From the NCBI RefSeq assembly GCF_004210375.1, contig NC_134833.1:142406127-142470126 (forward strand): a DNA stretch of 64,000 bases. Reading direction: 5' to 3'. Of the stretch, positions 13,734 through 64,000 are shown piece after piece. Positions within the stretch are counted from its first letter, which is position 1; the number at the start of each line of letters is the position of its first letter. A program made the translations under genes and the position numbers. The notes below the pieces were generated by a model that did no database searches, was not told the DNA's origin, and saw nothing but the letters and a program-made list of their open reading frames with translations. The DNA comes from Tachypleus tridentatus. Taxonomy: Eukaryota > Arthropoda > Merostomata > Xiphosura > Limulidae.

Positions 13734-15300
13734 CACTGCTGGCCAAAATCTTAAGGCCAATGAACATAAATAAAAAAATATGCATTTTGCGTTGTTAGAC
13801 ACTACCACTTATTTGAGTACAACTTCGAAAGATGAAAATAAGAAAAGGGAAAATAGAAAATAAAAATATTTTTTAGAATTTAATAGGGAAAATGTGAACA
13901 CTATGAAATTAGCCTAAATACCAGTTGGTCAAAAGTTTCATACCATACCAAAAAGAAGTCCTAAACAGGGTAGGAAATGTCCAACAAGAGGTCTCAGTAG
14001 TGAGATGCACGGCCATCACTGTGGATAACTTCAAACATTCGCTTTGGCATGGTCGATATAAGCGTTTGCAGAAAGCTGGTTGGAATGTTATTCCAAATGG
14101 TGAAGATGGCTTCACGAAGATCATGCACTGTTTGGAATTGACGTCCATTTCCACAGACTTCCCTTGTCATCCACTCCCAAACATTTTCAATGGGGTTCAG
14201 TTTGGGCGAACACGCTGGATGGTCCAAAAGAATCACGTTACTCGCCATGAAAAAGTCCTTTGTCCCGCAGGCATTGTAGATTGCAGCATTGTCCTGCTGA
14301 AAGATCCAGTCATTTCCACACAATCGAGAGCCTTCAGTAAATAAGGATACTCTCTCCAACATGTCAATGTAGCCAGCTGTTCTTTGACGCTCCTGTATAA
14401 CCTGAAGCTCCATTGTTCCATGTAAGGAGAAAGCATCCCAGATCATGATGGAACCTCCTCTACTGTGTTGTGTAGAAAATGTCTCCGGTGGGATGTTCTT
14501 ATCATGCCAGTAACGTTGGAAGCCATCTGGACCATCCAGGTTAAATTTGTTCTCATCAAACCTTCGTCCACTTTTCTACGTCCCATGTTTGGTGCTTCTC
14601 AGCAAAGTTTAATCGAGCTGTTTCGTGGTGTGGAAGGAGGCGTGGCCTTTGAAGACGTTTACGGTTTTAAAAGCCTTTCTCTCGTAGATGCCGTCTTATT
14701 GTTTTTGAGCTGCATTCTGCGCCCGTAAGGGCCTTAATCTGATTCGACGATCGGCTGGTGTCTTGCCAGAGAACCCGTCAAATCCTCCTGCTCAATGCCG
14801 GCGAAATTTTATTGGGTAGACCACTTGAAATTCTCGTTCTATATCCCTCAGGGTCTTTTAAGAAATTTGTAATAGCAGTTTTACTACGCCAAATCTCACC
14901 AGCGATGGCACGTTGAGAAATACCTTGCTTTTGCAGCTCGACAATTCTACCATGTTCAAACTGTCAACTTTTTAGCCTTTGCCATGTTTTTACCCAATAT
15001 AACACAGAAAATGTCAGTGGGAGATGTTGAGAACGCTAATGCGTTACTAAATTTCGTTACGTGTTTACCAATTAACGCTTCGTTTCTGTATGGTTTTAAT
15101 CTTTTGACCAGCTAGTATTTAGGTTAACTTCATAATGTTCACATTATCCCTATTAAGTGCTAAAAACGTTTTTGATTTTGATTTTCCCTTTTCTTATTTT
15201 CATCTTTCGAAGCTATACCCAAATAAGTAGTTGAGTCTAACAACGCAAAATGCATATTTTTTCTTTATGTTCATTGGTCTTAAGATTTTGGCCAGCAGTG
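13734..15300 (-). mobile_element. Tc1-like DNA transposon with long terminal inverted repeats
   Basis: A 1.57-kb element. Both ends carry CACTGCTGGCCAAAATCTTA and extend as inverted repeats for about 190 bp. The right end abuts the TA at 15301-15302; at the left the TA is mutated. The minus-strand interior is a broken transposase (separate entry). This is a cut-and-paste element of the Tc1/mariner superfamily, now immobile because its transposase is frameshifted. Confidence 0.92.
13994..14990 (-). pseudogene. Tc1-like transposase, frameshifted
   Basis: The N-terminal helix-turn-helix is readable at about 14850-14964 (EHGRIVELQKQGISQRAIAG). The C-terminal catalytic part is open from 14446 to 13994. 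It contains [13 protein letters not shown] (second catalytic Asp) and [11 protein letters not shown] (catalytic Glu), spaced as in DD34E enzymes. Frameshifts separate the two parts. Overlapping plus-strand frames are shadows. Confidence 0.85.
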
Positions 15301-18624: not shown

Positions 18625-19506
18625 GAACAGCGAAGTTTGGAAACGTATAAACCAGTGTCGTAAAACATGCTTTAATCAAAATAAGCACCATTTGCTTCAA
18701 CAAGTTTCTGCCAACGTGTAACGATGCCATTTACGCCCCTACTAGAGAAATCAGAGTTTTTCTGGTTAATGAGCTCCCTGATAACTTCTTCTGCAGCTGC
18801 CTGGTTTTGAAAGTGTTTATTGTTCAAAAAATTGTCAAAGTGCTTGAAAAAATGAAAATCTGTAGGGGAAAGGACTGGGGAATAAGGTGGATGAGGCAAA
18901 ACCTCGATACCAAATTCGTTTGATTTTTGGAGCATCATCCTTGACAGGTCTCATAACGCTGATTTTGTTGATCTTCAGTTAGTTCATGCGGAACCCACTT
19001 ATCCAACTTTTTCGTCTTTCCAATTGCACTCAGGTGGTTGGCTATGCTTGATTTGCTTGTGCCTAGCTTTTCTGCAAGCTCACGTACTGTTGTATGGGGT
19101 CTGTCTCAACTGCTTCCCTTAATGTGTTTTCACCTAAGGATGGCTTCCTTCCATGACATTCGTGGCCTGCAAGACTTTCATCTCCACGTCCAAACCTTTG
19201 GAACCAACTCTGAACTGTACATTCAGTAACAGAGCCATGGCCGAATGCTTGATTGATGTTCCATGTAATTTCGGTAGCTTTTCGTCGAAGTTTGAAATCA
19301 TAGAGGGAAATCAGACGAAAGTCCTTCTTGTCCAAGCTGCTTTGGGGGATTCGAAAGTTGCTCTGAATAGAGTCGAAACAGCAGACAATTAAGATACCTT
19401 GTAAACGACAAACATTGGATTAAACCGACCAACCAACGATAAGTTACTAAATATTCAGCTTCTAAGTCTCATAATGAGAATTCCGACATTTATGTTTGGA
19501 TCACCT
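18625..19506 (-). mobile_element. Mariner element with internal deletion
   Basis: On the minus strand the N-terminal HTH half (MDKKDFRLISLYDFKLRRKA, 19335 to 19063) and WVPHELTEDQ are kept, then the frame jumps. The C-terminal end is kept with PHPPYSPVLSPTDFHFF and VTRWQKLVEANGAYFD (18938-18672). About 120 codons, including the first two catalytic Asp residues, are missing, and HPPYSPDL has become HPPYSPVL (third catalytic Asp lost). This is a non-autonomous, MITE-like derivative. End positions are approximate. Confidence 0.82.
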
Positions 19507-29772: not shown

Positions 29773-32700
29773 CTATTGATAAAATTAATATGAAACTTTG
29801 TGGGTTTTCAAATAATTTTCTCTAATCTTTGCATCTGTTAATATCCACCTTAAAACTAAATCTAAGATAACTAATGGGTAGAGCAGTTAGTTCTATGTAA
29901 ATAAATGTGTATACAATTTCAGTTTCCCAGATTTCTGTGAATGACATTTAGTAATTAATGAAGTTTTATCAAAGAATGGCTACAAAAAATCTGAATTATT
30001 GGACATAGCTAATGTGAATTTCAAGTTTCTTTCTTTTGTCTATTGCAATTCACAATAGAAATAAACTATGTACAAGTTTACCATACCAGATTATCTGTAG
30101 CTACACTGTTTTAATACACAGTTTAGAATAAGTTCTGAAAAACTGTTGAATAGTACATAATCAAGAAAATATTACTCAAAGTGTAATACCATGAAATATT
30201 TGAAAGATTTTAACAGCCTTGTTTTTAAGTGATAAGCAGTATTCCCATTTCTTGAGTTTGATCTACAGTCTTCTGGTACTATATTATTACATTCATGTCT
30301 GATTCGTATTTTCTATATTAGACAAGTGAGTCATGCTACTATACCCACAGTTCCACATAGAGCTCATAATGACTCACTTTTGCTACATGACTCGCATCTT
30401 CCAAATGTCTTTAGACAAACAAGAGCATATTTTTATCTTCTCTAACAATAAACCACTAAATGACTCACAAATATAGCTCCACACATCCTGTACTTAGCTA
30501 CAAGAAACTTGCTGGAAAATCAGTTACATCATAAAAGTGGACAATTCATTAATAATACAAAAATACATTTTCAATACATGAAACATGTACTTCAGCTTTA
30601 TATCAATTCAAATTTTTATTATTTTAAAAAATTCATCCCTATCTTAGAAGTTACAAATACAGCTGGGTACTATAATTATAGCAATGACAACATTCCACTT
30701 CAAAAGTAGCAAGACCCATTAAAGAGTTGAAACAAATGTAGAATTTAGCAGTAATTAATAGATGGTCAATTCTCCTTAGATGTACTCCTTTTCTGAACAT
30801 ATTAAAAAATTGTTTTTGTAAAAACACTCATTTAGAACTAAAACACAAATTAACTAAATTCTACAAAATTCTAAGAGTAGTGCAATAATAGTTAGGTGGT
30901 CAGTTTCTCTTGATACTTTTTTTAATATTAAATATTAAGTTGTATTTACTTACTTTTAAAAGGTTGTTTGTGTGGTCTAATCTTCGTTTTCTACACCTGG
31001 CAGCAGCTAGTTTGTTTCGTTCTCGACGGACTCTCCTTCGTTCCTCTTCTTCTGGTGACACCTGTTGTCAATGTACACACCACCAAGATACTTTTTATAG
31101 CTTCTAGTAGCTTGAATTATATAGTAGTAACTCATTTGTTAGTAATTAATATTACATATTTTCACACATGCATGTGTGTGTGCAAGCACATACCTTACAA
31201 CTTATTGATATGCAGAGATGTATATACTTTTGCCATATAATTTTTCTTCTTACAATCTGATTAGGGCTTCCCAGTATACATACATATATATATATATATA
31301 ACAATTTCCAAACAGCAGTCCAAACTTGATAAATGTGAAACATGAATCTCCTATAATGCTTGAATAAAATAAAAGTTCACAGCTTTAAAATAAGCTCAGG
31401 ACAACATATTTTTTTGTTAATGAAACAACTAAAATACATTAAACTGATGGTAAAAAAATCTTGACACCATTAGTTCATTAAAATATATATACACACACAC
31501 ACACACATCTTGAACAAATAAACAGAATTAAGCATTTTGATTAACCTTCTCATTTTTGGGTCTCCTGCCCCCTGAGTTGCGGGGCTTCGATGCCGAGGTA
31601 GTTGTTACTGCAGGTGGAGGAGACATGGATAGTGAATCTTCTGAAAAGAAGCTGTTACAGGTAGATTGGCTATGGACTGAGGCCATCCACTCTGGATCTT
31701 CTTCCTGCTTGATTATAGGAAGAGGTTGATATGATGTTGAAACATTCACAACAGGAGGGACAAATCCTGCCTGGTGTTGATGTTCCATTGGGGCTGGAGG
31801 GATGGACTGTAGTTCAAAGAGAGTTTCAATATTCTTCAGGGTTGTCGGAGTCACAGTAGGAGTTGTACGAGTAGGAACACCAGATGTAAGGCCACTAATG
31901 TTTGTGAACTATTAAAAAACAATTAAAATACATTTTTTTCATCCTGAACATACTTAAGCTTCTAAATGGTTATAATTACAGAGAAAATTAATAAGTGTGT
32001 GCTTGTGCTCACGTGTGGCAGATTTTGTTGAAAAATTCTTTTCAAGGGGTGAAAAATATGCAGTATTGTATTTTTCAATAAGTTATAAAATTTTTACAAA
32101 ATGCAAGATTCTACATTTTTGGCAAATGTCCTTATGGGTTTAGTTAAAACAAATGTATAATTATTACATGAAAAACTTAATGCCTTAATTCATCAAGTTC
32201 ATATCACTCTTTTTATTTAGGTGAGATTTCCTGTGTGCAAAAACTATACAGGAATAAAAGAAAAGGCAAGATGACAGAAAACTATTCAACACATCAACCC
32301 CTCATGAAAACAACAAAAGATACAGCTTTTCACATTCTTATCTAATAAAATTTTGTTAGAATTTGAACTAATAACATGAGTGATATTGTCAGAAGAACCA
32401 TTTCAAAATGATGTTTTTATTTTAAATGCATCATTATATGAGAGATTTACGGTAGCCAAACTTATATGCAAAATAATCTACTACAGAAAAAAATTTTGAA
32501 TATTACCAACAATAATAAAATGTTTTGTCTGGGAAAAGGTAACTTCCAGAAGTCTGAAATACTTCTGATAAGCATGCCTGAGTTTTTCAACTTCTGTACA
32601 CAATTTGTTACTATTTAACTACTCTTCAATTTTTACTTTTTTTTAATGTGTTACTTTTCTTTCAAGTATATTGATTAATACCCATTTCAAAATTTTATTT

Positions 32701-35700: not shown

Positions 35701-38386
35701 AAAAAGGATATCTTCGTCATGATTATTAACATAATAAATGTTATTGGTAAAAACTGCAAACAAAAACAGTACAATAAAATTAGATATTTATCAATAGGTT
35801 ACACAGAAAAACTTACTAATGAGCAGTATATGTGTCTTAATTACATTTACTGCAATTTTTCAAAGAAAATGTCATCAAAACTTAGGCTTTGTAGTGAAAG
35901 TCTCCAGTTATTGATTACAATTAAAGAGAAGCTGAAATGTTGATTCAGCTTTTACAGCTTTCCACAAAAGTATATTTCCAACATCACACAACATAATCTA
36001 TTCACCCACACAGACTTAGCCTGGGAAATCCTCTATCCCAGGACCTAGCCATACTCTCTCTCTAAGTAACAACAAGTAATACATTTTTACCCTAACTAAC
36101 ATACTTCGGGTTCAATTCCAAGAATAAACAATTTCTATATATACCTACAGAACATCCGAGGACATTAAAATTTCCTGGTGAAAATAAAAGTAATTACACA
36201 ATTAACTTTCTGAATATTGCCAACACCCAACCATTTCATAATTTCAGTAAAGGTAAAACAAAGATACACAGCGTTTGTTTTTAAATTTTGCGAAAAGCTA
36301 CTTGAGGGCTATTTGCGCTAGTTATCCCTAATTTAGCAGCGTAAGACTAAAGGGAAGGCAGCTAGTCATCACCACCCACCACCAATTCTTGGGCTGCTCT
36401 TTTACAAACAGTGGGATTGACTGTCACATAATAATGCCCCTATGGCTGAAAGGGTGAGCATGTTTTGTGACAGGAATTTGAACCCGCAACCCTCAGATTA
36501 CGAATCGATGCCTTAAGCCACCTGGCCATACACATAGTGAAAACTATGTTAATGAGGCTTTCCAGTCATATAAAATACTAAAAATCTAGAGATGTTACAA
36601 GGTCTAATGCTTTTAACTTACACAGTTTACACCAGTGATAATTACATACTTAACCAAATGTTTTACAGGCCCTAACTAGTTCCCTGTTACAAAAGTTCAC
36701 AAAATAAAAAGTCATTTTTATTATAGTGGATTATAACCCTGATCAACTCAATATCACTGAAAACAATACACAAAAAATAGCATAACAAAATAATCACTGA
36801 AAAAATTTCATTCATGGATAACTTAAAAGGAGGACTTACAGGAATAGAGTAAAGATTAACACATAAATATAATATAAATATCCATACAAGATTTATGTTA
36901 TCCCAGAAACAAAAATAAAACAAATACTCATAAAAACTGTATCATAAACCTCTATAACAAAGAATCACATACAAAATACAGTACAACTGATTTCTGTACA
37001 GGTGAAATTGGACATAAGACATCACTACTTAAAAAAATACTCACCAGTAAAGATAAAAGTGATATTTGTGCAAAAGCTTGTGTTCAGTGCTTAATATAAA
37101 ATTAAGTACCACAATATTTAACTCCACACAAGGTCTTGTTTCATATATGTAAAAGTCAAAGAAATTTTTACCGATATATTTTTATTGATTTAAAAAATTG
37201 TGTAACCTAGTTACTTTGGATAACAAGTGACTAAAGACAGTTTTTAAGACTACAGCTGACAAACATTTCTGTACTTTGGAATAGGAGGAGAGATTAAGAA
37301 GTCTAGCAATAATTTCTATAGAAGAAGAAAGGGTCAGAGAAATTAATAAGGATAAATTTAAATAAAAAAGAATGTTGCCATGTCAAAAACTCAAAGTTCT
37401 ATTTACTAATGATAAATCTATTTTTTATTCTGAATTATAAAAAAACCATTCAAGTCTTGTAAAGTACAGAAAAACAAAACTATTTATATATATAATAAAA
37501 TTCAGTGCTGTCCTTAGTGTTTACACATATATATTATTATGATTATTACTACTAAACCATTTTTCACATTTTTCTTTAGATAAAATACCAAGTTTTGAAT
37601 TCAATATAAGTAAACTTAAATGATTATGAGTATACTCTAGATGGAAATAACAGTAATGTTGTGATGGAAAAAAAAAAATGATGTTGTTGAAATGGTTGAT
37701 TCGCCTCCTAAGTCATCCAAGCAATGTATAATTGCTAGTGGTAGAGCAAATAGGATTTTAGGTTGTATCTACAAAAATACTGAAGTCTAAAGAGGTTATA
37801 ATTTCACTGTATTATGTATAGATTGTTTGTCAGGTCACATTTGGAGTACTGTGTTCAATTTTCAGCTTGGTATGTTAAAAAGTGCACTGAATTGAGAGAA
37901 AGGATTCAGAGGAAGCTACTAGATAGAAAGACTGTCACACAATGTCATATTAAGATTTCTGAAGTGGCTTTCTATTAAACAAAAAAAGATGTAGAGGGGA
38001 TTTGATGGAGGTGTGTAAGATCGTTAAGTGAATTGATAATGTTAATACATCATCTTTTTCTCGTACTAAATGGTGAGAATGATAAAACTAGGGGTCACAA
38101 ACATTAATTTTGGCAGGGTACGACTACAAGTAATCTTCAACAAAGACAACTTTATTTTTCTAACAGGGTAGTACTAGTTTACCTTCAGATATTGTGAATG
38201 TAGTTAATTTAAACAAAAACTGAGCAATATTTGGATGAAGCGGGCTGACTTTTGAGTGTTTTATTTTTAAAATTCGTATATACTTACCGTCGTTGTTGTT
38301 GAACCTTCTGTTCCATTTCCTACAGATAAGATATTGCTGGCTCCTGTATACTGTATTGATTCTGGGGCACTTTCATTCGTATACAT
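29317..38386 (-). CDS. kay: Fos-family bZIP transcription factor (kayak orthologue), complete coding region
   Basis: Fos pairs with Jun through a leucine zipper to form AP-1, which binds TGAGTCA and activates stress, wound and growth genes in the nucleus. Four coding exons join in phase 0: 38288-38386, 31546-31908, 30954-31061 and 29317-29772, giving 341 residues and a stop. Residues 1-33 are encoded by exon 1. Exon 2 holds an acidic/Ser-rich region with IKQEEDPEW and HSQSTCNSF. The basic region [16 protein letters not shown] (residues about 167-182) follows, with the invariant Asn and Arg of bZIP proteins. The zipper runs from LDHTNNL through [19 protein letters not shown] to [14 protein letters not shown]. 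The tail is Ser/Pro-rich and ends KLVSL, compared with TLLAL in vertebrate Fos. Intron 1 (6.4 kb) holds LINE and SINE debris. Likely immediate-early regulation, judged from the upstream CArG, CRE and AP-1 sites. Confidence 0.95.
29773..30953. other. FOS intron 3
   Basis: 1.18-kb GT-AG intron; no repeats recognised. Confidence 0.85.
30954..31061 (-). CDS. kay: FOS exon 3: basic DNA-binding region
   Basis: Encodes [18 protein letters not shown] and then [18 protein letters not shown], 36 codons, phase 0 at both ends. EEEERRR plus RRERNK and AAARCR is diagnostic of Fos. The exon boundary just after NNLLK lies within the start of the zipper, as in other Fos genes. Confidence 0.96.
31546..31908 (-). 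CDS. kay: FOS exon 2: N-terminal regulatory region
   Basis: 121 codons, phase 0 at both ends, from [18 protein letters not shown] to GGRRPKNEK. Contains [16 protein letters not shown] and a Ser/Pro cluster (SLSMSPPP) likely to be phosphorylated. It is homologous over its last 80 codons to the plus-strand exon at 54103-54342. A (CA)n/(TA)n run lies just below it at 31481-31507. Confidence 0.94.
31909..33290. other. FOS intron 1, proximal part
   Basis: AT-rich intron; no exon or element recognised up to the LINE remnant. Confidence 0.7.
33290..34760 (-). mobile_element. CR1-like LINE fragment (ORF1 plus endonuclease), decayed
   Basis: Read on the minus strand in broken frames. First comes a coil-like ORF1 segment ([20 protein letters not shown], about 34580). 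Then an esterase-like HTLFF...NND...[15 protein letters not shown] (about 34030-34140). Last is an apurinic-type endonuclease start ([15 protein letters not shown], about 33700). [19 protein letters not shown] and LTMGDLNC follow (about 33370-33490), corresponding to the MGDFN core. The reverse transcriptase is missing. It lies inside FOS intron 1 on the same strand. Confidence 0.65.
34770..36265. other. FOS intron 1, middle part
   Basis: AT-rich; possible further LINE 5' decay but nothing that can be aligned. Short frames such as 35719-35943 are not supported. Confidence 0.4.
36270..36530 (-). mobile_element. SINE-A copy in FOS intron 1
   Basis: Diverged minus-strand copy from GTTTGTTTTTAAATTTTGCG to CCACCTGGCCATAC. 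Confidence 0.85.
36536..37685. other. FOS intron 1, distal part
   Basis: No feature seen beyond AT-rich runs. Confidence 0.6.
37685..38265 (+). mobile_element. LINE 3' end (reverse-transcriptase C-terminal region), decayed
   Basis: Plus-strand frames show [18 protein letters not shown], then a segment like the [11 protein letters not shown] region of CR1/jockey-type RTs. A KxKRGDLxEVxKI-like stretch, TRGH and a YLDE end follow. Stops and frameshifts abound. It is antisense to FOS, 20 bp before exon 1, so it lies just inside intron 1. Confidence 0.72.
38288..38386 (-). CDS. kay: FOS exon 1 coding part (start codon)
   Basis: Encodes [18 protein letters not shown] through EGSTTTT, 33 codons, ending at donor GTAAGT. 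The start is chosen as the first ATG in the frame that joins exon 2 in phase 0. Confidence 0.88.
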
Positions 38387-39096: not shown

Positions 39097-39110
39097 ACTT
39101 CCATATATGG
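39097..39110. promoter_or_regulatory. CArG box with overlapping ETS core (serum-response-like element)
   Basis: CCATATATGG at 39101-39110 is a perfect CC(A/T)6GG. ACTTCC at 39097-39102 is the reverse of an ETS GGAAGT core that overlaps its edge, the arrangement used by SRF with ternary-complex factors at vertebrate FOS. It lies 715 bp upstream of the start codon. Confidence 0.55.
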
Positions 39111-46417: not shown

Positions 46418-46691
46418 GGCCTGGCATGGCCAAGCGTGTTAAGGCGTGCGACTCGTAATCTGAGGGTCGCGGGTTCGCATACCCGTTGCGCCAAACATGC
46501 TCGCCCTCCCAGCCGTGGGGGCGTTATAAAGTGACGGTCAATCCCACTATTCGTTGGCAAAAGAGTAGCCCAAGAGTTGGCGGTGGGTGGTGATGACTAG
46601 CTGCCTTCCCTCTAGTCTTACACTGCAAAATTAGGGACGGCTAGCACAGATAGCCCTCGAGTAGCTTTGTGCGAAATTCAAAAACAAACAC
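46418..46691 (+). mobile_element. SINE-A copy
   Basis: Full-length copy with a possible short target duplication ATTTTAT (46411-46417 and 46693-46699). Confidence 0.9.
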
Positions 46692-47054
46692 AATTTTATT
46701 TAATTTTTGTATGTAAATAGAGAGATATATGTAATTAAAATAATTTCTATAATTCCAGTTTTAATCCGATTGTTGTTATTTATTTAGAAATTGCCATTAC
46801 TCTCGTTTTGGTTTCCTATTTGCTGGCTGTAACATACAGACATCATCCATTCGGCCAGCAAAGGATAATTGAAGTTAGTGACTCTTTTAATATGGACGTA
46901 TTATGTCACTGCAATAACCTTCTCTGGCAGGCTAGATATTATGTAGCTGTGAGAACAAAAAACTAATGTATTATTCGTTACTCATTATTTTTTAAATTCA
47001 TTAAAGTTATACTTAAAATGTAAAATAACCAAAAGGAGTTAGAAGTTAAAGCTA
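46692..47054. other. Intergenic stretch
   Basis: Nothing recognised. Confidence 0.5.
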
Positions 47055-53228: not shown

Positions 53229-54096
53229 TTGTTTTAAAACAATAAACACACGCACACACGTGTATGATCATATTGTTACATTTATAAAACATTGTGGTCC
53301 CTTAGTTACGAATATGTGTTCAAGACTTTAATCTGTTAGGCTGTAAGCTTCGCTCATAAAAGTCGAGTACACAGATGACCATAGTAAAAAAAAACAAAAA
53401 AAACAGTTGCTTGGCGGTTTCCAGTGTTCGTTTCCTTGTAGTAATAATAATATTACTTCTGCCACAGGTCTTCAGTTACTTACGCAACCTTAAGGAACTA
53501 TAGTCTAGCACAGGATGTGGTTGAGCTCGAGAATTTCATGTATAGGGAGTGACTCACGAGCTCGCGCGCGCGGGCGAGATGTGTCGTACCCAGTAAGTTG
53601 CCAAAGTGGTACCGTAAAGCTCGAAATCCAGAAGGTATCAGCTTTACAAGACTCACGGAAGCTTCTGCAACCCTCCGAATGTTTTTGGAAATATTCTAAA
53701 GGTCAAAACTTTCAGAATCGCTTGTTTAAAATACCGACGTTTTACCGATTATTTTGGCCACTGAAACGCTGAAGTGTTTTGGTACTTTAATATTATAAAC
53801 ACTCATACCGGCCTATTTATTCCGTTGTTGGATTTCGTTCGAGGATATAATCTATTGTGAATTACCTCATACAGCCCTCCCCCCCTCCTGCAACTGTACG
53901 TGTCAGTGTGAGTTAATATTGGTTGGTTGTAGATTAGAAACAAACTGAAATATCGAGTCTTTATTAAATAAAAAAAAGGAAGACGCTTCTTAGAGGGCAA
54001 ACAGAATACAACGTTGCGTGAGGAACGTTACAATTAATAAATTATTGAGTCACTTTTTACAAAGCTGTTTCTTCACTTCGTTTCGTTCTGATAACT
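53229..54096. other. Stretch upstream of the Fos-like exon
   Basis: Contains a locally CpG-rich patch (GAGCTCGCGCGCGCGGGCGA, 53559-53578) preceded by an AP-1 heptamer TGACTCA at 53550-53556. It could be the promoter of the Fos-like paralogue, but no first exon resembling FOS exon 1 was found. Confidence 0.35.
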
Positions 54097-54342
54097 ATGC
54101 AGTCTCGCCAGTATCAGCAGGAGTTTCTCCTTCCGTTGGTCAACGTTCCAGCATCTTACCATCCAATTTCCATGATCAAGCAGGAAGACGATTCCGAATG
54201 GATGACCTCTGGTCATAGCCAGTCCACCTGTAACAGCTTCTTATCGGAAGATTCACTGACCATGTCCCCGTTATCTGTAGTAACAAGTTTTTCAATCACG
54301 AAACCTCGTGGCACAGGGGGTAGGAAACCGACAAACGAAGAA
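54097..54342 (+). CDS. Fos-like paralogue, single exon homologous to FOS exon 2
   Basis: 82 open codons ending at the donor GTAAGTTT. Either an ATG at 54097 starts the frame or, more likely, the acceptor TATGCAG at 54096-54102 opens an 80-codon exon in phase 0. By hand count about 48 of 80 residues match FOS exon 2, including [28 protein letters not shown] and KPRGTGGRKP. Both exons end at the same place and phase. Most synonymous positions differ while the protein is conserved, which argues against a recent dead copy. No basic-region or zipper exon is visible up to 64000, so the gene either continues off the edge or is a relic. It lies on the strand opposite FOS, 15.7 kb from its start. Confidence 0.7.
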
Positions 54343-54346
54343 GTAA

Positions 54347-55011
54347 GTTTATATGACAGACGGTTCATTGTCGTCGAATCTTAGTTGTTCATTAAAGCAA
54401 TGAGCAGTATAATTGTTATTATTGTTTTAAAACCCCAATGATATTATTCTAACGTTAGGGTTACGTGTGAATGTCGTATCTTTCCAGGTAGACAATAGAA
54501 CTCAGACTTTGGAAGGTATACTTGGAGTGAGCTGATAAGGTTATTTTAAGTAGAAGATGATTTAATTTAAGTATAATGTAATTTAAGCTATTTCGTAGGA
54601 CATATCCTAGCTGTTTAGTATTTGTAGTTGCTAAGCTACTAAGACAATTTGACACCGACTCTGATTTGAACTATTGACCAAAGGGAAGGTAATTCATCAG
54701 CAGCACCCAGCACCCTACCACCCATACTAAGAGGTTGAACTGTTGCCCTTGTAATGCATTCACAGTTTAAAGTGCGAGTAGTATTTTGTATTGTTAAATA
54801 GATTCGAATTCGGCTCATCAGCTCCGAAATTCAAAGCTCCACCGCAGAGCCAACCTGTTACTTCTTAACTATCGTAAAGATGTTGTCATTATTTGCTTGT
54901 TTTTGTACTCGTCTAATTAATACTTATTTATACATTTAAACGTACCATTACCTCCTTCCTTGTCCGAGTGCTAACTATGGGTTAATGTACAGGACCGTAG
55001 AGAAAAGTTCC
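54347..55011. other. Stretch after the Fos-like exon
   Basis: Would be intron 2 of the paralogue. Holds a very diverged minus-strand SINE-A (about 54670-54780: GGGAAGGTAATTCATCAGCA, CACCCTACCACCCATAC). No bZIP exon. Confidence 0.45.
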
Positions 55012-55228
55012 TCGGTGCGTGATCCGTGAACGCGAGTAAAATAATCACCTTCCCCGTTTATGGGACCGTGAGTGCGTCGTAAGGTGATGGTTAAATGCCA
55101 CTATTCGGTTAGACAAGAGTTGAGCAATGTTTACTAGTTACTTACTAGTAAAGAAGTCTATCATTTCAAATTAGGGACGGCTGACGTAAGCCAGTCTCTT
55201 GTAGCTTTGCAAAAAATATAACAAACAA
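55012..55228 (+). mobile_element. Old, degraded SINE-A
   Basis: Keeps GGTGATGGTTAAATGCCACT, ATTCGGTTAGACAAGAGTTG, AATTAGGGACGGCTGACG and GTAGCTTTGCAAAAAATA; the rest is diverged. Confidence 0.65.
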
Positions 55229-55643
55229 ATAAATAAAAATTTCCACCCCTTTTCTTAATTCTGAATATTTATATTTTTTCATTGAACGTTCCTTTATATT
55301 TCACACAGGCTGAAGGGCTTAATCGGGACTTTCTTAAGTCTAGGAACAGCTTGCCCTAATTGTGATTGATATTGACCAATGGTATGACAAACCGGCCTTT
55401 ACAGTGACTTTTTTTTCAGCTTTAATCAGAATAGATGGGGTTAACTGTCATCCTTATAACACAACCACATCTAAAAATATGGCGCATGTTCCTCAGGATT
55501 TCAGCGCAAACCTTAGACCTCACGATTCGCAGGCCGAAAGGTATGTTAACCAGTAGATTATGCCCACTTTCCAATTTCCAGAGTTTGACAGATATAATTT
55601 TCTGGTAATTACAAAATGCATTCAGTGATCAAAGTTTTAGTGA

Positions 55644-55938
55644 CTGGTATGGGTATTAACACTTTTATTGATAAGGAAAGAATAACATTTCGACCTTCTT
55701 AGGTCATCTTCTGGTTAAGAAAGAGAGAGTTTGAATGTGACCATTGCCGGACACGTGTCTTAAGGACGAGATTATAAGTATAGGTATAAAGATATTCCCA
55801 TTTATACTATCGTCCGTAAGACATGTGTCTAACAATGGTCACATTCAAACTCTCTTTGTTAACTGAAGATGATCTAGGAAGGTCAAAACGCTGTTCTCTC
55901 CTTATCAATAAAAGTGTTAATACCCACACCAGCCGTTC
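55644..55938. repeat. Large palindrome (foldback element)
   Basis: The left arm (about 55644-55770) and right arm (about 55805-55938) are reverse complements with few mismatches. Examples: GGTATGGGTATTAACACTTT against AAAGTGTTAATACCCACACC, and GAATGTGACCATTGCCGGAC against GTCTAACAATGGTCACATTC. The centre is about 35 nt of AT-rich DNA. RNA or single-stranded DNA from it would form a hairpin of over 120 bp. A shorter relative lies at 9586-9745; both are followed by TTTATTTCAAGTGGGTTTCT. Confidence 0.88.
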
Positions 55939-56066
55939 TGAGTTACATTTTTTATTTCAAGTGGGTTTCTCGTCATCAAGAAAGTTTTGGCGAATTTATT
56001 TTTTTTATTTGAATATTTTTATATAATTTGTAGACAGTGTCAAATTTTTATTATTTACATTAAACA

Positions 56067-56192
56067 AAATTCTCCGTTGGGACAGCGGTAAGTCTTCGGA
56101 TTTACAACACTAAAATCAGGGGCTCGATTTCCCTCGCTGGACAAAGCAGATAGCCCGATGTGGCTTTGAACTAAGAAACACAAACAAACAAA
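56067..56192 (+). mobile_element. SINE-B copy
   Basis: GGGACAGCGGTAAGTCTTCG, GATTTACAACACTAAAATCA, CAGATAGCCCGATGTGGCTT, then an ACAAACAAAC tail. First of a cluster of five. Confidence 0.85.
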
Positions 56193-56396
56193 TATTAAAT
56201 AAAAAAAACGTAACTGATCGCCTCAGTTTCCTCTCTTTTTACAGGTGTTTCACACCTCATAACCAACTCTTTTCTTGTTATCCAGCGGTTACGTACAGTC
56301 ACCTGAAATACGTTCTTAAGAATTTTAAATCTTACATACTGCTAACCTAACTTGGGATTGTGTTGCAATATAATGTAATAAATACATATATCAACA

Positions 56397-56516
56397 CGCG
56401 TCTCGCAGTGGAACAGCGTTATGTCCGCGGACTTACACTGCTAGAAACCGGATTTCGATATTCGTGGTGGGCAGAGCACAGATAGCTCATTGTGCAGCGT
56501 TGTGCTTAATTATAAA
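56397..56516 (+). mobile_element. SINE-B copy
   Basis: CAGTGGAACAGCGTTATGTC, GGATTTCGATATTCGTGGTG, CTTAATTATAAACACG tail. Confidence 0.85.
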
Positions 56517-56574
56517 CACGTAGACTAATTCCGATTTATAGTAAATTATTATTTTTTCTTTTACTATTTTATAC

Positions 56575-56690
56575 AGCTTCCCTGGTGGGACGGCGACAAG
56601 ACTTCGGATTACGACGCTAAAATCAGAGGTTCTATTCTTTTCTGTTGATACAACAGACCGATAGTTCGGTGTGGCTTTGCTGTGGCCCGA
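56575..56690 (+). mobile_element. SINE-B copy
   Basis: CTTCCCTGGTGGGACGGCGA, GGATTACGACGCTAAAATCA, CGGTGTGGCTTTGCTG. Confidence 0.8.
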
Positions 56691-56825
56691 CTTATACTCA
56701 TTTCATATAAATATCTAGATATATGTGTTTATACCACATGTAAATATGTATAAGTAAACATAGTAGTTTTCTATTTAAAATGTACAGTTAAAGATTTTTT
56801 TTGCAGTGTGAAAGAATAATTCTTG

Positions 56826-56943
56826 TACCTGTGTGTGTTTTCATAACAAAGCCAGCTCAGCTTATCTGCTGTATCCACCGAGAGAAATCGAACCATGGAT
56901 TTTAACTTTATAAATCATTAGAATTACCGCTGTCCCACCAAGT
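56826..56943 (-). mobile_element. SINE-B copy
   Basis: Minus-strand copy: ACAAAGCCAGCTCAGCTTAT, CACCGAGAGAAATCGAACCA, CCGCTGTCCCACCAAG. Confidence 0.8.
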
Positions 56944-57049
56944 GATTTAAGCAACAAAAACTTGGTATGGATTCTCGTATATTTGAGATCTGGACTGTAT
57001 TTGAATTTGTAATTAATATATTGTATATATATTTCCATAATATACGCTA

Positions 57050-57240
57050 TAGCGGGTAAGGCGTGCGACTCGTTCGCGCCCGCGTCGCGCATAATACGTG
57101 GGGTGTATAACGGTCAATCCCACTATTCGTTGGTAAAAGAGTAGCCCAAGACTGGGTTTTGCTGCCTTCCCTCTAGTCTTACACTGCTAAATTTCACAGA
57201 TAGCCCTTGAGTAGCTTTTAAATTCAAAACAAAACAAAAC
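57050..57240 (+). mobile_element. SINE-A copy with several internal deletions
   Basis: Compared with the 40123 copy it lacks at least five separate blocks of about 5-25 bp, yet the retained blocks are nearly unmutated (CGGTCAATCCCACTATTCGT, CTGCCTTCCCTCTAGTCTTA). Confidence 0.85.
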
Positions 57241-57414
57241 TACTGTTTTTGTTTTTCTTAACTTCAAAAGAGGTTAAATTTATGACTAATTATTAGCAAT
57301 AACTGTTTTAAGAACTGTTAACGTGTTGTTATTTATTATTCATGATGCTGTGAGGTTGAATAAATACAAGTGGGTGTTTAAAGATAGTTCTACGCAATTA
57401 TAAGCTAACGCATG

Positions 57415-57535
57415 GCAGACTCCTGTGGCTTAGCGACAAGATTGAATATTTATCTCTATAAAACTATGTTGCCGATATCCGTAGAGGGAAGAACACAGAT
57501 CGCCTCTTGTGTATCCTGGTTGTTAACAATAAATC
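57415..57535 (+). mobile_element. SINE-B copy
   Basis: GACTCCTGTGGCTTAGCGAC, GTTGCCGATATCCGTAGAGG, CACAGATCGCCTCTTGTGTA; diverged tail. Confidence 0.6.
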
Positions 57536-57788
57536 CGAAAAAAAACAACCAACAACAACAAAAAACACGAACGCATTACTGTCGTTTACGTTTTAATATA
57601 TTCTCAACTATTTGTAGTTTTTTTTAAACAGTCAGACAACAGATAAATCACTTACAGACGTTTTATAGTTTTCCTGCAAAAACTTACACTGCTTTGTTAA
57701 CATAGAAAAAATAATAGTTTTAATTATCCTTTATATTTTATTCACTAACATGAAAAGATAATTTCAGAAGTTGAATATACACCTAGTT

Positions 57789-58065
57789 TTTGTTTGTTTT
57801 TGTTAATTTCGCACAAAGCTACTCGAGAGCTATCTGCGCTGGTCGTCCCTAATTTAGTAGTGTAAGACTAGAGGGAAGGCAGCTAGTCATCACCACCCAC
57901 CGCCAACTCTTGGGCTACTCTTTTACCAACGAATAGTGGGATTGACCGTCACTTTATAACGCCCCCACGGCTGGGAGGGCGAGCATGTTTGGCGCGACGG
58001 GATGCGAACCCGCGACCCTCAGATTACGAGTCGCACGCCTTAACACGCTTGGCCATACTGGGCCC
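57789..58065 (-). mobile_element. SINE-A with 12-bp target duplication
   Basis: Minus-strand copy flanked by ATACACCTAGTT at 57777-57788 and 58066-58077. Young by its low divergence. Confidence 0.93.
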
Positions 58066-58077
58066 ATACACCTAGTT

Positions 58078-61000
58078 ATAAATATATAGATCGTGTACCG
58101 GCAGTTCATTTAATAACCACATCTATACACAATGGGTTTCATGTAACGCTTGACCTTTTGAATAAATTCTATTGTCAACCTTCGCCGTTGAAAACCGTAA
58201 AAAAGTACTAAAACGTAATTCGTATTTCTGAGAATAATTAAGACGTTGAAAGATTCGTTGAAAGTGCAAAGTTTTAATAATGTTTTCAGTATTAGTGATA
58301 ATTCTCTCAACGTGTTAAGTAGAACAACATTAAACAAGATTCTAGTCCTTTTACCAATTTATAGGACTTGTCACTTTTATTCCCGAAACCAGAGAAAATG
58401 CAAATGAAACGTAAGAATGACCTAAGACATGCATAAATTCAGTTTGACATTATTTTCGTTTTGACCCAGTTATTGACAGGTGCGAAATGAGAATTACATA
58501 TAAAGGTACGTACAGGTAAAGAACTTATGAATGACGTAGATAAAACGGTCCACACATATTTTTTAAGAACCAAAGCCTAGGTGATAGGTGTCTCGTGTTT
58601 GCTTTGATCTGTCTTGACAATGACAGACGGTATATCGTGCCAGTTGTTAAATAATGTGCTCCTAAGGTGTTTTACTCGCATAAAGAAGAACGAATCATCA
58701 ATAGCTGCGGCACTTGAATTTTTTTTAGGCACGATTAGAGTAAAATTATGTGTGAGACCTTTTTATTATATATATATTTTTGTGCGCCAGCGTTGCAAAA
58801 CGTGGGGCGCGTCTATAACCACATTCAGTTGTATTACTCATCAAGATATCTACTAGCCTACCCTCAAATTGAAATTATTATAGGTAGGATTCGGGTAACT
58901 TCATGTGAGCTACCTTTGAGTGAAGTATTTGGTTCAGCCATTCGATCGATCAGCCGTGAATTGTACAGATAATTTTATTTCCACCTTAATGTACTGAGCT
59001 TATCCTTATTCAAACTAAATCATTTAAAATAACCTGCCCAACGAAAGAATACGTCACAAAGGCAGTGTATGAGAGTTTCTAGGCTTAAAACCAGACATGA
59101 AGAACTAAAAAAAAATGTAACCTAAAAGTTAATAAAATTAACATTAGAAAAAAGTGCTTATTATTAAGTTTTATGTAAGTTAACATAGAACTTATGTTTA
59201 TAAATATTTTCTTAGTGATGGTTTTAAGCAATATTTCGCAATAAACTGATAAAAGTAGGTTTCGCAAGTCTATTTAGATTTGATTATAAAATATATGTTT
59301 CAAAAACACAGTTAGTTTTTCACGAGACTATGCCAATAGTAATTTTTGTCTGAATTTCTAGTTACTGGGTTTAGGCTTGTGACCTAATATTCCATATGGT
59401 ATAAATATATGATAATTTAAATTGTACAAAAGTAGCTATAAGGTCCCATGAGTTTTTATACTTACATTCAAAATTTCAGTTCACTGTCACAAGTCGTTTT
59501 ATATGATACTTTCGCATGTTAGTATACCAAAGATGCGAGAAATTTACAGCTGTTTTTTCTGTGAAAGTGATAGAATTATAAGTCGTGACGAGACCCTGCA
59601 TTTATAAAAACCACCTGCTTATTGTGATATGTTAAATTGTTAGTGTATGAATCAATCTCCTTCCAATCAACTCTATTTATGCCTATTTTCGTGTCTTGGT
59701 TCAATGCCAAGTTACCATAAGATATTTTAGAGTTTCTAGTCTAAACATGCATCGAGAAAGGCAATAACACTATTTCCCTTTTTCATCTGTCTCCACCAGG
59801 ACAGTTTGGTTTCTGTCAGTACTTTTAATCATTAAAGGACAGAGACCCGGTAGTTTGGCATCTTCTCTAGTTTTGGTGTAAATAAACATCTTCTCCGGTT
59901 GTGGTGTAACTAAACCGAACTACATTACACTGTGATAAGAGGTCCATGCTGCGCCTGCCAAAAATGCACTAACATTTTACTTGTCAAAAAAAGGAAATCG
60001 GTTCACTTTTCCTTTCGATCACGCCGTTCTATATTTACCATTTAGTTTTCTATTACACTAAATAGAAATAAGTATTTAAAATTCATATATATAAATCTTA
60101 TATTGATGAAATGTTGTGTTACAATCAACGTTTCTTACATATATATTAATTTGAGGAAACCGTCAAATTATGAGTTTGTTTAAATACGTTTCAATACCAG
60201 CATGATCGCATTTATTAATTTGTATATTGTTGTCTTTGTCATACAAAGTTGTTTTGGAGCGGTCAGGCCATTGCCATATTGTCATTTCTAGGGAACGTCT
60301 GGGAGCATGTCCCCACCAGAAAATTTTAGAACTTTAATACTATAAAATTGTATATTCAGCCATTGTAACTACACATACTACATACATACGACGTAATGTG
60401 TTGAATTAAAATACGCAAGGATTAATACATAGGTTGTAGCTAAACACGCCCTGAAAATGTGGTCAGGTTATGGCCTAATTGGCCTTACCGATAACTATAG
60501 CCACAGTTGCATATTACAGTTTCCAGTATTAAAAAAAGAAATAAAAAAGGTGAAATTGTTCCGTTGAAATGTAGGAGTACAGGAGGATCTCTAACAGGAA
60601 TTAGTGATTTCAATTGCAACATTGAAATCTTGTGTGACATTATGCTCTGAAGGATCCTGTAATAAGCAAAATTATGAATCCGCAAACAGCAAACAGAAAA
60701 GTGTTTAAAAAGTCAACGGAGTCCTTAGGAAACCTCATCGGTAATTGTAGAATCAAAAGAAACGGAATAAATAATTCGTTCCTGCTATATCAGGCAACAA
60801 CTCTTCGGTTTGTTTCTTCAGTTTTATCAACAGTGATTTTTTTTTTAGTAAGTGTGTTTTTCCTCTATGCTAAAATATACAATACTTTTCGTCATGTAAA
60901 TGCATATGCAAATAGTTTTAGTGAGAAAATAAAAATATGGCTCGAATTTTAGAGATATTTTGATAAATATATCAAAATATATATATATATATAAATATAT

Positions 61001-61535
61001 AATTTATCATCATCGAAGTCTCGTTAGCCGAATTTGTATTTTTTCCCCATAGAGAGCCCAAAACGAGCGCTATATATAGTAAGACATCACGTTACAAACT
61101 CTAGTATGGAATGTGGCCCTAGGGCTAGAAGAGAGTATAAAAATGTTTTAACCGGCGCATTTAAAATAAAGTGTTCTCAAAATGTATCCTTTAAACAATC
61201 CTATTTTGAATAGTTATTTAAATAGATTATTTTTCTTTTAGAAAGTTTTCTTTTATTTTCCTAAGCTAAATAGCTCGCAGATAGGTTTGTAATTCAACAT
61301 ACATAGATACTAATCAACAGTTTGATCATTTAATGTTTAAAATCGTTCAACACCATTTGCCATTAAGTAATTAAAATTTTTAAATGCGTAAAATGTGTGT
61401 ATGTATGTCAGACCAGGAGAAAGCTGATTCAAGAAATATGCCTTAGAGATGTAAGTAAAACAGCAGTATTAGTCCTATATGAAAAAGTTATTTAGCGTTT
61501 GTGTATGTGTGTGTAGTCACAATGTTTCTCTGTTA
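58078..61535. other. Intergenic stretch
   Basis: No gene recognised over 3.4 kb. Contains the second copy of an unclassified repeat (58793-58918), a TA microsatellite at about 60976-60992 and short unsupported frames. Confidence 0.5.
58793..58918 (+). repeat. Unclassified dispersed repeat, copy 2
   Basis: Counterpart of 15500-15630: TATTACTCATCAAGATATCT, ACTAGCCTACCCTCAAATTG, AAATTATTATAGGTAGGATT. Confidence 0.55.
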
Positions 61536-61812
61536 CGTGTTTAGTTTGTTTTTAATTTCGCGCAAAGCTACACGAGGGCTATCTGCGCTAGCCGTCTCTA
61601 ATTTAGCAGTGTACGACTAAAGAGAAGGCAACTAGCTAGTCATTATAACCTATCGCCAACTCTTGGGCTACTTTTTACCAACGAATAGTGGGATTTTGCA
61701 CATTATAACTCCCTTACGGCTGGAAGGGCGAGCATGTTTGGTGTGACGGGGAGTCGAACCCGCGACTCCCACAGTTAGTCGAGCACCTTAACTACCTGGC
61801 AATGACAGACCT
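61536..61812 (-). mobile_element. SINE-A copy
   Basis: Moderately diverged minus-strand copy from GTTTGTTTTTAAT to CTACCTGGCAATGACAGACC. Confidence 0.88.
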
Positions 61813-63142
61813 TTCTCTAACACAACAAAACACCAATTCGTTACTGCTCTCTATTCATTTCGGCCCTAAGTATTTTCACGTGTATTTCATCTAGTCTTCC
61901 TTTACAACCGAAACAAAGTAAATCGAGACTTTTATGTCCATCTTTTAACACCTCACCAACCTACAAAGTTGTAAAAATTTAATGGCATAAACGTTTGCAT
62001 TAAGGAATTTCAACAATTGTTCTCTTTTTAGGATGTAATTAAGTGATATTAAATAATCATATAAATTATGAACTTAATTTAGTTTTTTGTTTTTTTTGTA
62101 CGTGCTTAGAACACTGTACGTTCATGGTCTATTAATTAATGTCCATCTCCTACTTACAGTAATGTGTCTCAGAGGTTATAGTGTCGATCTGTGGATGTAG
62201 GGGTCGCTCGTTCATGCCCGTTTTCCGAAATAAATAAGACAATAATAATGAAATACAAATAAGTAAAGAAAACTTCGCGGTTCGCATTTAGTGGCTATGG
62301 GTATATTATATGGATGACTAACAAATCCTGTTATTCGATCAGAAATAAAGTTGGCAGAGGGCACTATTGACTAGCTGCCTTCCCTTTACAATATTGTTCT
62401 ACTGTACTGAAATGTAAGAATTTCAATCTTACTGTGAGTATGATACATCTGTCTTTTACGATTAATTTACTAACACTAACATCGAAACTGTTTTGCAACT
62501 GATTATTTGTGTCTTGTAAAAAAAAATCACATTTTTACTAGGTATAAATGTGGGGAAAAATGTGATAAAAAGTAATTTCAGGTAACCATACATTTAAGTT
62601 TAGAAGGTTAAAATTAGCCTGGGAGTAATAAGGCCTGCAGCATTTCTTGTAGAGAGATGTAAAACTAATATTACATTAGATCTGTTTGTTTTAAGAAAAA
62701 GCCCAATTGTTCTATATTTGCACTCCGTAAACCATGGTGCATCGAACCACGGATCGTAGCACTGATAGCCCGTTCTTAGTATTGAGTACTTTGTATGCTT
62801 TGGAAATATTAAATATCAAACTAATAATTAAAACTAGTAGTTCAAATGATTAGTTTGATATTTAGTTGTATGATTTATATTTTATCTGTAAATACTCCAG
62901 AACCAGTTATTCAGTTTCAGATCAGGCTTTGTATTAATTAATACCTTATTTCCTCAGTAGTCTAACAAAATACTACAAACACCTTATAGTAACTGTGAAA
63001 ATGGTAAAGTACATATAATGAAAATTTTATGACACAATTTTTATCATCTATAAGTTCGTGACTTAACCAATCTAGATTGGTAAGTAGCCTAGAATGTGGA
63101 ACGTTCAACAGTTTTTAACATCTGCTAACAAATACTGTAGAA
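61813..63142. other. Intergenic stretch
   Basis: No gene. A degraded SINE-A is suggested at 62155-62400 (CAGAGGTTATAGTGTCGATC to GACTAGCTGCCTTCCCTTTA). The remainder is AT-rich. Confidence 0.5.
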
Positions 63143-64000
63143 CAGTGGTTCTCAACCTGTTTCACCCCATGCACCCTTTTCACCATTTATCAGAATGTCA
63201 CTCCCCCTTTCCAAGATTGTCTGACTCAATAGGTGTATTCCAAATAATGTGCCTATGATATTGAAAATCTTTTATTTTTTTCCATATTTGTGCATATATA
63301 TATATATATTTACTTGGATTATTTTTATAATTTAGAGTTACAAATTTAATAGCAATAGAAAATGTTGATGGATTTAAAACTTGAATACAAGTAGTTTTTT
63401 TTTATATTCGTAACTTATAATTTAACAGACTAAAGTTACTGAAACATACTTTAGTAAACAAAAGGTTCAGTAGAATACCAGGGTATTGTAATTCATTTTA
63501 TTCTGATGAAGATCACAGTCAATGAGAAACCTGTGATTGTTTTTTCTTCACCAATTCTTGGATGCGTGGAGGAGTACTTGAAAGGACACAACGCAAGTTA
63601 TTTTCAATCTCTAATCTACTTCGTTGCTTTGTTTTTATTTGAAATAGAGTTGAAAAGCCTGAGTCAGAAAGATACGTCGACACAAACGGAAGCAATGCAT
63701 GGATAGCTCTTTCTGCCACTTTTGGATAGGAGTCGCACTCAAAGGCCAACGTATCTCTTGCTCCAGAATCAGTCTTCAGCTCCAGAAATTCATCTTGACA
63801 ATCATCAGGAACTTTTTCAACTGACAATTTAAATGGATTTCGCACTAAATCCAACTCCTCATCACTGAGGTCAGGAAAATATTGGCTGAATTCATTTTCC
63901 AGTGCTGTAAAATGCTGCAAAATTTCCATTTTTGCAAACTCTGGAAGCACTTGCTCTTTACTACCAGTAACAAGAATTGATGACAGTTTCTTCAAACATT
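63143..64000 (-). mobile_element. hAT DNA transposon, left end and 3' part (continues off the window)
   Basis: Begins with CAGTGGTTCTCAACCTGTTT, a terminal inverted repeat of the kind seen in Charlie/ZBED-type hAT elements, with a candidate 8-bp target site CTGTAGAA at 63135-63142. The transposase is encoded inside on the minus strand. The right end lies beyond the window. Confidence 0.82.
63519..64000 (-). CDS. hAT transposase (ZBED5/SCAND3-like), C-terminal part
   Basis: 160 codons open from the window edge to a stop at 63519. The end carries the hAT dimerisation region: FVSTYLSDSGFSTLFQIKT, then RSRLEIENNLRCVLS and PRIQELV. This matches ZBED5/SCAND3/FAM200-type proteins, which are domesticated or active hAT transposases. 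The frame is uninterrupted, so the copy is either young or domesticated; the BED finger and catalytic residues are outside the window. The plus-strand frame at 63506-63706 is its shadow. Confidence 0.85.
   Translation of the reverse strand, partial: CLKKLSSILVTGSKEQVLPEFAKMEILQHFTALENEFSQYFPDLSDEELDLVRNPFKLSVEKVPDDCQDEFLELKTDSGARDTLAFECDSYPKVAERAIHALLPFVSTYLSDSGFSTLFQIKTKQRSRLEIENNLRCVLSSTPPRIQELVKKKQSQVSH

Follow-up and report, generated by a model that had tools for sequence, protein, structure and literature searches.

The window, by which we mean the whole 64 kb stretch of DNA that was analysed (C9:142406127-142470126, forward strand), contains a Fos gene on the minus strand, FOS-a, and part of a second one on the plus strand, FOS-b. 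The Fos family comprises bZIP transcription factors such as c-Fos, FosB, Fra and Drosophila kayak. The two genes on C9 are divergent and lie back to back (head-to-head), and further Fos copies are found on C8 and C6. In the features given here, extended numbering continues the window numbering past 64000.

38288..38386, minus strand: FOS-a exon 1 as predicted from conservation, 33 codons beginning MYTNES, donor gtaagt, phase 0
31546..31908, minus strand: FOS-a exon 2, 121 codons
30954..31061, minus strand: FOS-a exon 3, basic region and start of the zipper, 36 codons
29317..29772, minus strand: FOS-a exon 4, rest of the zipper, C-terminus and stop; likely gene conversion partner of FOS-b exon 4
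54103..54342, plus strand: FOS-b exon 2, 80 codons with phase-0 boundaries on either side, placed by tblastn to FOS exon 2 and by acceptor and donor context
54343..64000 in the window, plus strand: FOS-b intron 2, the first 9.7 kb of approximately 13.6 kb
67927-68034 in extended numbering (C9:142474053-142474160), plus strand: FOS-b exon 3 (bZIP), from tblastn and the genome search
72379-72831 in extended numbering (C9:142478505 on), plus strand: FOS-b exon 4 (last exon), open to the stop

The reading frame at 54097-54342 on the plus strand is open over 82 codons. An initial annotation had described it as an inverted Fos-like exon 16 kb upstream of FOS with about 60 percent of residues matching FOS exon 2 and with the same splice phases and exon end. 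These observations hold: the distance to the predicted FOS-a exon 1 (38386-38288, minus strand) is 15.7 kb, tblastn within the 64 kb window gives 61.5% identity over 78 residues to FOS-a exon 2 (31908-31546, minus strand; E 1.8e-29), and exon 2 ends at a phase-0 boundary in both genes (AAG/gttaat in FOS-a and GAA/gtaagt in FOS-b). At the DNA level the two exons are 74% identical over 227 bases, and their flanks do not align. FOS-b exon 2 probably starts at 54103, after the good-looking acceptor ctgataactatgcag/TCT and in phase 0 like FOS exon 2; alternatively, it could be a first exon starting from the ATG at 54097. The exon is shorter by approximately 41 N-terminal residues that FOS-a and C8 Fos keep and that C6 Fos mostly keeps, and nothing similar to this block was found upstream of it on the plus strand using tblastn with FOS-a exon 2. 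We take the N-terminal block to be a variable part and not a defining domain of the Fos family. FOS-b exon 2 is without a 20-residue block that is present in FOS-a and C8 Fos and altered in C6 Fos. Exon 2 of FOS-a and that of FOS-b match no Pfam family; an [IV]KQE motif within the exon 2 core, which fits a SUMO consensus, is kept in FOS-a, FOS-b, C8 Fos and C6 Fos.

No bZIP exon was detected between 54342 and 64000 in a motif scan and by tblastn, in line with the earlier remark that no zipper exon follows within 9.6 kb. Within the window, this would fit a reading of 54097-54342 as an alternative or trans-spliced exon of FOS-a or as a stand-alone gene without bZIP. However, the exon lies on the strand opposite to FOS-a and is followed outside the window by its own bZIP and last exons, and we regard this reading as exceedingly improbable. 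The RRERNK exon predicted to lie right of 64000 on the plus strand is present 3.9 kb past the window edge, with the last exon after it. In a search of 40 kb right of the window, FOS-b exon 3 is identical to FOS-a in 33 of 36 residues and FOS-b exon 4 is 84% identical to FOS-a over 151 aligned columns; the genome search match to exon 4 spans C9:142478505-142478954. FOS-b exons 2, 3 and 4 are in order on the same strand, have AG/GT borders and phases matching those of the neighbouring FOS, contain no stop and no frameshift and, if exon 2 starts at 54103, have lengths that are multiples of three. The exons are separated by approximately 13.6 kb and 4.3 kb, and we rejected a processed pseudogene because these introns are retained and the exons are not fused. 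Among the options raised in the initial annotation, the bZIP exon at 67927-68034 rules out a trimmed regulator without bZIP, and the uninterrupted frames and AG/GT borders of exons 2 to 4 make an old relic unlikely; the downstream plus-strand bZIP and last exons confirm the remaining option of a Fos paralogue extending past the window.

The joined FOS-b protein passes the Pfam cut-offs of bZIP_Maf (31.3 bits, cut-off 22) and bZIP_1 (28.6 bits, cut-off 27.6) and scores under that of bZIP_2 (19, cut-off 22.3). For FOS-a, exon 3 alone is below the Pfam bZIP cut-offs and the joined protein is above those of bZIP_Maf and bZIP_2. Among solved structures, the six best matches to the FOS-b zipper (exon 3 and the start of exon 4) are all FosB or c-Fos, with E values from 4.9e-15 to 9.1e-9 (FosB 4.9e-15 and c-Fos 2.5e-14 at best), compared to only 3.8e-4 for BACH1 and 5.3e-4 for Jun-D. 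FOS-b resembles the Fos family in its basic region, in a zipper that matches FosB/c-Fos among solved structures, in its phase-0 introns and in a last exon that holds the second part of the zipper together with the C-terminus.

The first exons are less clear. FOS-a exon 1 matches the region upstream of C8 Fos in tblastx (E 4.7e-4, 51.6% over 31 residues), i.e. exon 1 is poorly conserved even between these two genes. The FOS-a and C8 exon 1 peptides align with a score of 76 and the other C9 candidates listed score at most 3; FOS-a exon 1 also scores 167, but against itself, and this value is not counted as evidence. Upstream of 54103, tblastx, tblastn and a donor scan revealed nothing like FOS-a exon 1. 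The donor scan gave six candidates with an open reading frame plus donor, of which four were listed, and these were compared with two control regions. The well-placed candidate at 53515 (26 codons, donor gtaagt, phase 0) scored -11 against best scores of -7 and 0 in the controls and is a guess. Finding no similar exon 1 is what a recent pseudogene would predict, in which the promoter and first exon were lost and disabling changes have not yet accumulated, and that the Fos last exon at the matching place on C8 is degenerate points the same way.

The tests for selection bear on this reading from both sides. In the 32-codon core of exon 2 (IKQED...TMSP), which was picked after the fact as a conserved stretch, FOS-a and FOS-b differ at 8 codons with synonymous changes only and at 6 replacement codons, close to the at least eight synonymous and similar number of replacement differences initially counted in the best-aligned 33 codons. 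The dN/dS comparison to FOS exon 2 proposed at that stage gives a pairwise omega of 0.264 with dS 0.98. We dropped this pairwise value as proof of selection on FOS-b, because the constraint lies mostly on the FOS-a and C8 branches (omega 0.087). In a three-copy branch model of exon 2 alone (FOS-a, FOS-b and C8, with C6 excluded from all branch tests), omega is 0.66 for FOS-b, with 1 not rejected (2dlnL 0.40), and 0.087 for the other branches. For exon 3 alone, an omega of 1 on the FOS-b branch is rejected only weakly, by 2dlnL 4.19, in a fit where one branch length reached its bound; for exons 2 and 3 under one omega the FOS-b value is 0.29 and 1 is rejected by 2dlnL 5.73; for exon 4 alone it is 0.54 and 1 is not rejected (2dlnL 1.16), an estimate that is unsafe given conversion. 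Sharing dS over exons 2 and 3, the FOS-b branch rejects 1 in exon 3 (omega 0.064, 2dlnL 11.5) and in the 32-codon core (omega 0.16, 2dlnL 7.6), and does not do so in the other 48 codons of exon 2 (omega 0.68, 2dlnL 0.71). In the same model, 1 is rejected for whole exon 2 as core plus rest (13.0, 2 df) and for exons 2 and 3 (29.3, 3 df), as is a common omega for FOS-b and the other branches (13.7, 3 df). We simulated neutral drift under eight settings of divergence and indel rate of our own choice, with 4000 runs each. Exons 2 and 3 remained intact in 0 to 0.85% of the runs, and stayed open in 1.4 to 12% if indels are not counted. FOS-b therefore looks constrained in the part that would bind DNA and in the core motif and relaxed elsewhere in exon 2. 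The selection initially proposed for the exon is consequently supported for its core, and for exon 3, whereas the pairwise test was inadequate and neutrality is not rejected for the rest of exon 2. A pseudogene would be in keeping with the larger part of exon 2, for which neutrality is not rejected. Against it stand the open frames and AG/GT borders of exons 2 to 4 and an exon 3 protein that is nearly unchanged despite a high dS, and we consider a recent pseudogene quite improbable.

Genome-wide searches covered the assembly of 2,167,478,450 bases in 205 contigs. Pfam Coagulin, a family of horseshoe crab clotting proteins, gave 19 matches in it and none in 14 control genomes, and we take the source to be a horseshoe crab. 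The exon 3 search (E up to 10) listed eight matches, four of them strong (C9 twice, C8 and C6, all with E 2.2e-12 or better) and four weaker (E 3.6e-4 to 0.053). Two of the weaker matches, at C9:141298830-141298925 and C1:85889851-85889949, read ERNK[LV]AATKCRNKKKERT and are bZIP exons that we take to be ATF3/JDP2-like; the one on C9 is approximately 1.1 Mb from FOS. For exon 4, the search gave four intact matches, in the same four genes, and a weak one (E 2.77). Beyond C9, two features are relevant for the history of the locus:

C8, about 79476925-79477155, strand opposite to C8 Fos: degenerate Fos exon 4, local tblastn E 6e-5 and 1.3e-4
C6, about 17181121-17183242: C6 Fos, the fourth gene, more diverged and with a shortened exon 2

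The degenerate exon on C8, which is absent from the matches listed in the genome search, has an in-frame stop and gaps, and its start seems to be truncated by a repeat-like stretch directly before it. Its alignment score is 157.2 against FOS-a exon 4 (maximum of 300 shuffles 96.8), 137.7 against FOS-b, 137.8 against C8 Fos and 93.1 against C6 Fos (88.1 shuffled), i.e. it scores highest against FOS-a. No relics of exons 2 and 3 are claimed on C8, where the scores, each compared to a single shuffle, were 57.3/51.9 and 83.5/81.7 with FOS-b queries and 50.9/52.2 and 111.4/105.1 with C8 queries. Beside C6 Fos, no further match at E <0.3, and with it no candidate for an inverted partner, was found in 80 kb. 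If the C8 relic is a dead FOS-b, which its inverted position and not its sequence would indicate, then the inverted pair was once present on both chromosomes. The Fos genes and the exon 4 relic, taken together with the published duplications, lead us to infer that genome duplication produced C8 and C9.

The divergence between FOS-a and FOS-b is not uniform along the gene. For exons 2 and 3, dS is 1.32 between FOS-a and FOS-b, 1.27 between FOS-a and C8 and 1.22 between FOS-b and C8; for exon 4, the corresponding values are 0.22, 0.96 and 0.98. (dS is saturated for C6 and for exon 3 alone, and the first two codons of C6 exon 2, one of them a stop from the acceptor, were trimmed before alignment.) Fourfold sites, counted over codons present per pair, differ between FOS-a and FOS-b at 9/71 in exon 4 and 19/33 in exons 2 and 3 (Fisher P 6e-6). 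Over codons present in FOS-a, FOS-b and C8, with C6 excluded, FOS-a equals FOS-b and is unlike C8 at 73 of 120 variable sites in exon 4 and at 32 of 128 in exons 2 and 3 (Fisher P 1.2e-8), and the longest run of such sites, 16, was equalled in 2 of 20000 permutations. Third-position differences between FOS-a and FOS-b amount to 11 to 17 per 30 codons over codons 1-135 and to 2 to 9 over codons 121-255, exon 4 starting at codon 117. The C8 comparisons have 14 to 18 such differences where the FOS-a/FOS-b value drops and 8 to 12 further on, and silent sites are therefore somewhat quieter toward the 3' end in all three. In the last 31 codons, there is a single third-position difference between FOS-a and FOS-b and there are 12 and 11 in the two C8 pairs. 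The last 95 aligned bases of FOS-a and FOS-b, including the stop codon and six bases past it, are identical, and there the similarity ends. Thus, FOS-b is a mosaic: in exons 2 and 3 its distance from FOS-a is like that between FOS-a and C8, and in exon 4 it is far closer to FOS-a. Because exon 4 and exons 2 and 3 differ in divergence and site patterns, a single duplication date is insufficient, and we suggest as the simplest account that the likeness in exon 4 reflects interlocus gene conversion between the inverted C9 copies and not some other kind of exchange.

Alternatively, the inverted duplication may be recent and postdate the C8/C9 split, with exon 4 giving the true age and FOS-b exons 2 and 3 being acquired from another diverged Fos copy by recombination. 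This scenario would agree with the closeness of exon 4 to FOS-a (dS 0.22) and with FOS-b being, in exons 2 and 3, about as distant from FOS-a as from C8 Fos. On the other hand, the introns of the C9 copies, like the rest of the two loci outside exons, have nothing in common but dispersed or simple repeats (without low-complexity filtering there are two extra matches, of 28 and 23 bases), the 3' UTRs diverge six bases past the stop, and no other close Fos donor is among the first-look candidates of the genome searches. The inverted arrangement recurs on C8 with the degenerate exon 4, which likewise suggests an older pair, although this argument is weakened by the higher score of the relic against FOS-a than against FOS-b or C8 Fos. 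In total, we judge a recent duplication to be unlikely and favor an older inverted pair with conversion of exon 4.

A sequence scan placed two AP-1 consensus sites in the 560 bases preceding FOS-b exon 2:

53550-53556, no strand assigned: TGACTCA
54046-54052, no strand assigned: TGAGTCA

The region 53550..54052 is a possible promoter region of FOS-b. The window as a whole holds 12 AP-1 consensus sites compared to 7.92 expected, and 12 were reached in 11 of 100 shuffles. Three of the 12 (TGASTCA) lie within 141 bases of FOS-a intron 3 (30327-30467), a cluster that could possibly act as an autoregulatory element. The sole CArG-box consensus of the window (CCATATATGG, 39101-39110) is 715 bases upstream of the FOS-a start codon and not near FOS-b; with one match compared to 5.4 expected by chance, it is in itself no evidence, and there is no CArG box in the 1.1 kb upstream of C8 exon 1. 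The window also contains matches to Pfam DDE_3 (13994-14575, 4.9e-12) and to HTH_48 of Mos1 transposase (19063-19419, 7.5e-13), which are mariner/Tc1-type transposase fragments, and a repeat of approximately 280 bases is present in many copies across the FOS region (e.g. 57788-58064 and 46418-46693), the longer matches being 82-95% alike. Rfam (gathering) and tRNA scans of the window and a search of a plasmid collection gave no matches.

Based on these data, we consider it very likely that 54103-54342 is exon 2 of FOS-b and that FOS-b is an inverted Fos duplicate, most likely making an AP-1 subunit with a shortened and faster-evolving N-terminus. In this model, (i) FOS-b would have arisen by inverted duplication of the Fos locus about when the C8 and C9 copies separated or before, (ii) its exon 4 would have been partly rewritten from FOS-a by gene conversion, (iii) the gene is predicted to be expressed and its product to be a Fos-type AP-1 subunit that, judging from the zipper, would form a heterodimer with Jun on AP-1 sites and bind through the almost unchanged basic region and the Fos zipper, and (iv) the shortened, faster-evolving N-terminus may alter activation strength. 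The missing N-terminal block together with the intact zipper suggests that FOS-b may pair and bind and yet activate differently. More tentatively, and as a possibility that we rate well below an even chance, FOS-a and FOS-b could form a split Fos system in which conversion keeps most of the FOS-b last exon FOS-a-like while the N-terminus diverges, so that FOS-b would compete with or temper FOS-a at AP-1 sites. In such a system FOS-b would perhaps itself be under AP-1 control, given the two AP-1 sites and the lack of a CArG box nearby.

Horseshoe crabs are an invertebrate case of repeated genome duplication, and three rounds have been proposed (PMC7815833, PMC7210998). Having Fos on C9, C8 and C6 is in keeping with the retention of several copies outlined there; unlike such copies, FOS-b is a local inverted copy beside FOS-a and not on another chromosome. 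The words Fos, c-Fos, kayak and AP-1 are absent from the main text of both papers, and the accessible literature on Fos duplicates in horseshoe crabs and arthropods contained no report of the FOS-a/FOS-b pair that we could find, which is not proof of absence. As in the concerted evolution of duplicate gene pairs by gene conversion (PMC2720389), likeness between the two genes is far higher in one part than elsewhere; in contrast to the situation there, the tract in FOS-a and FOS-b covers most of the last exon only, and exons 2 and 3 retain their full divergence.

As a gene duplicate, FOS-b is ordinary; more unusual are its inverted partner, its trimmed front and its partly converted last exon. 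An exon-level mosaic of this kind would mislead dating or dN/dS analyses that treat the gene as a whole. What appeared as a one-exon oddity is now a likely functional second Fos gene, and the four Fos copies, one of which is trimmed and probably partly rewritten by its neighbour, provide a testable case of how duplicated regulators diverge.
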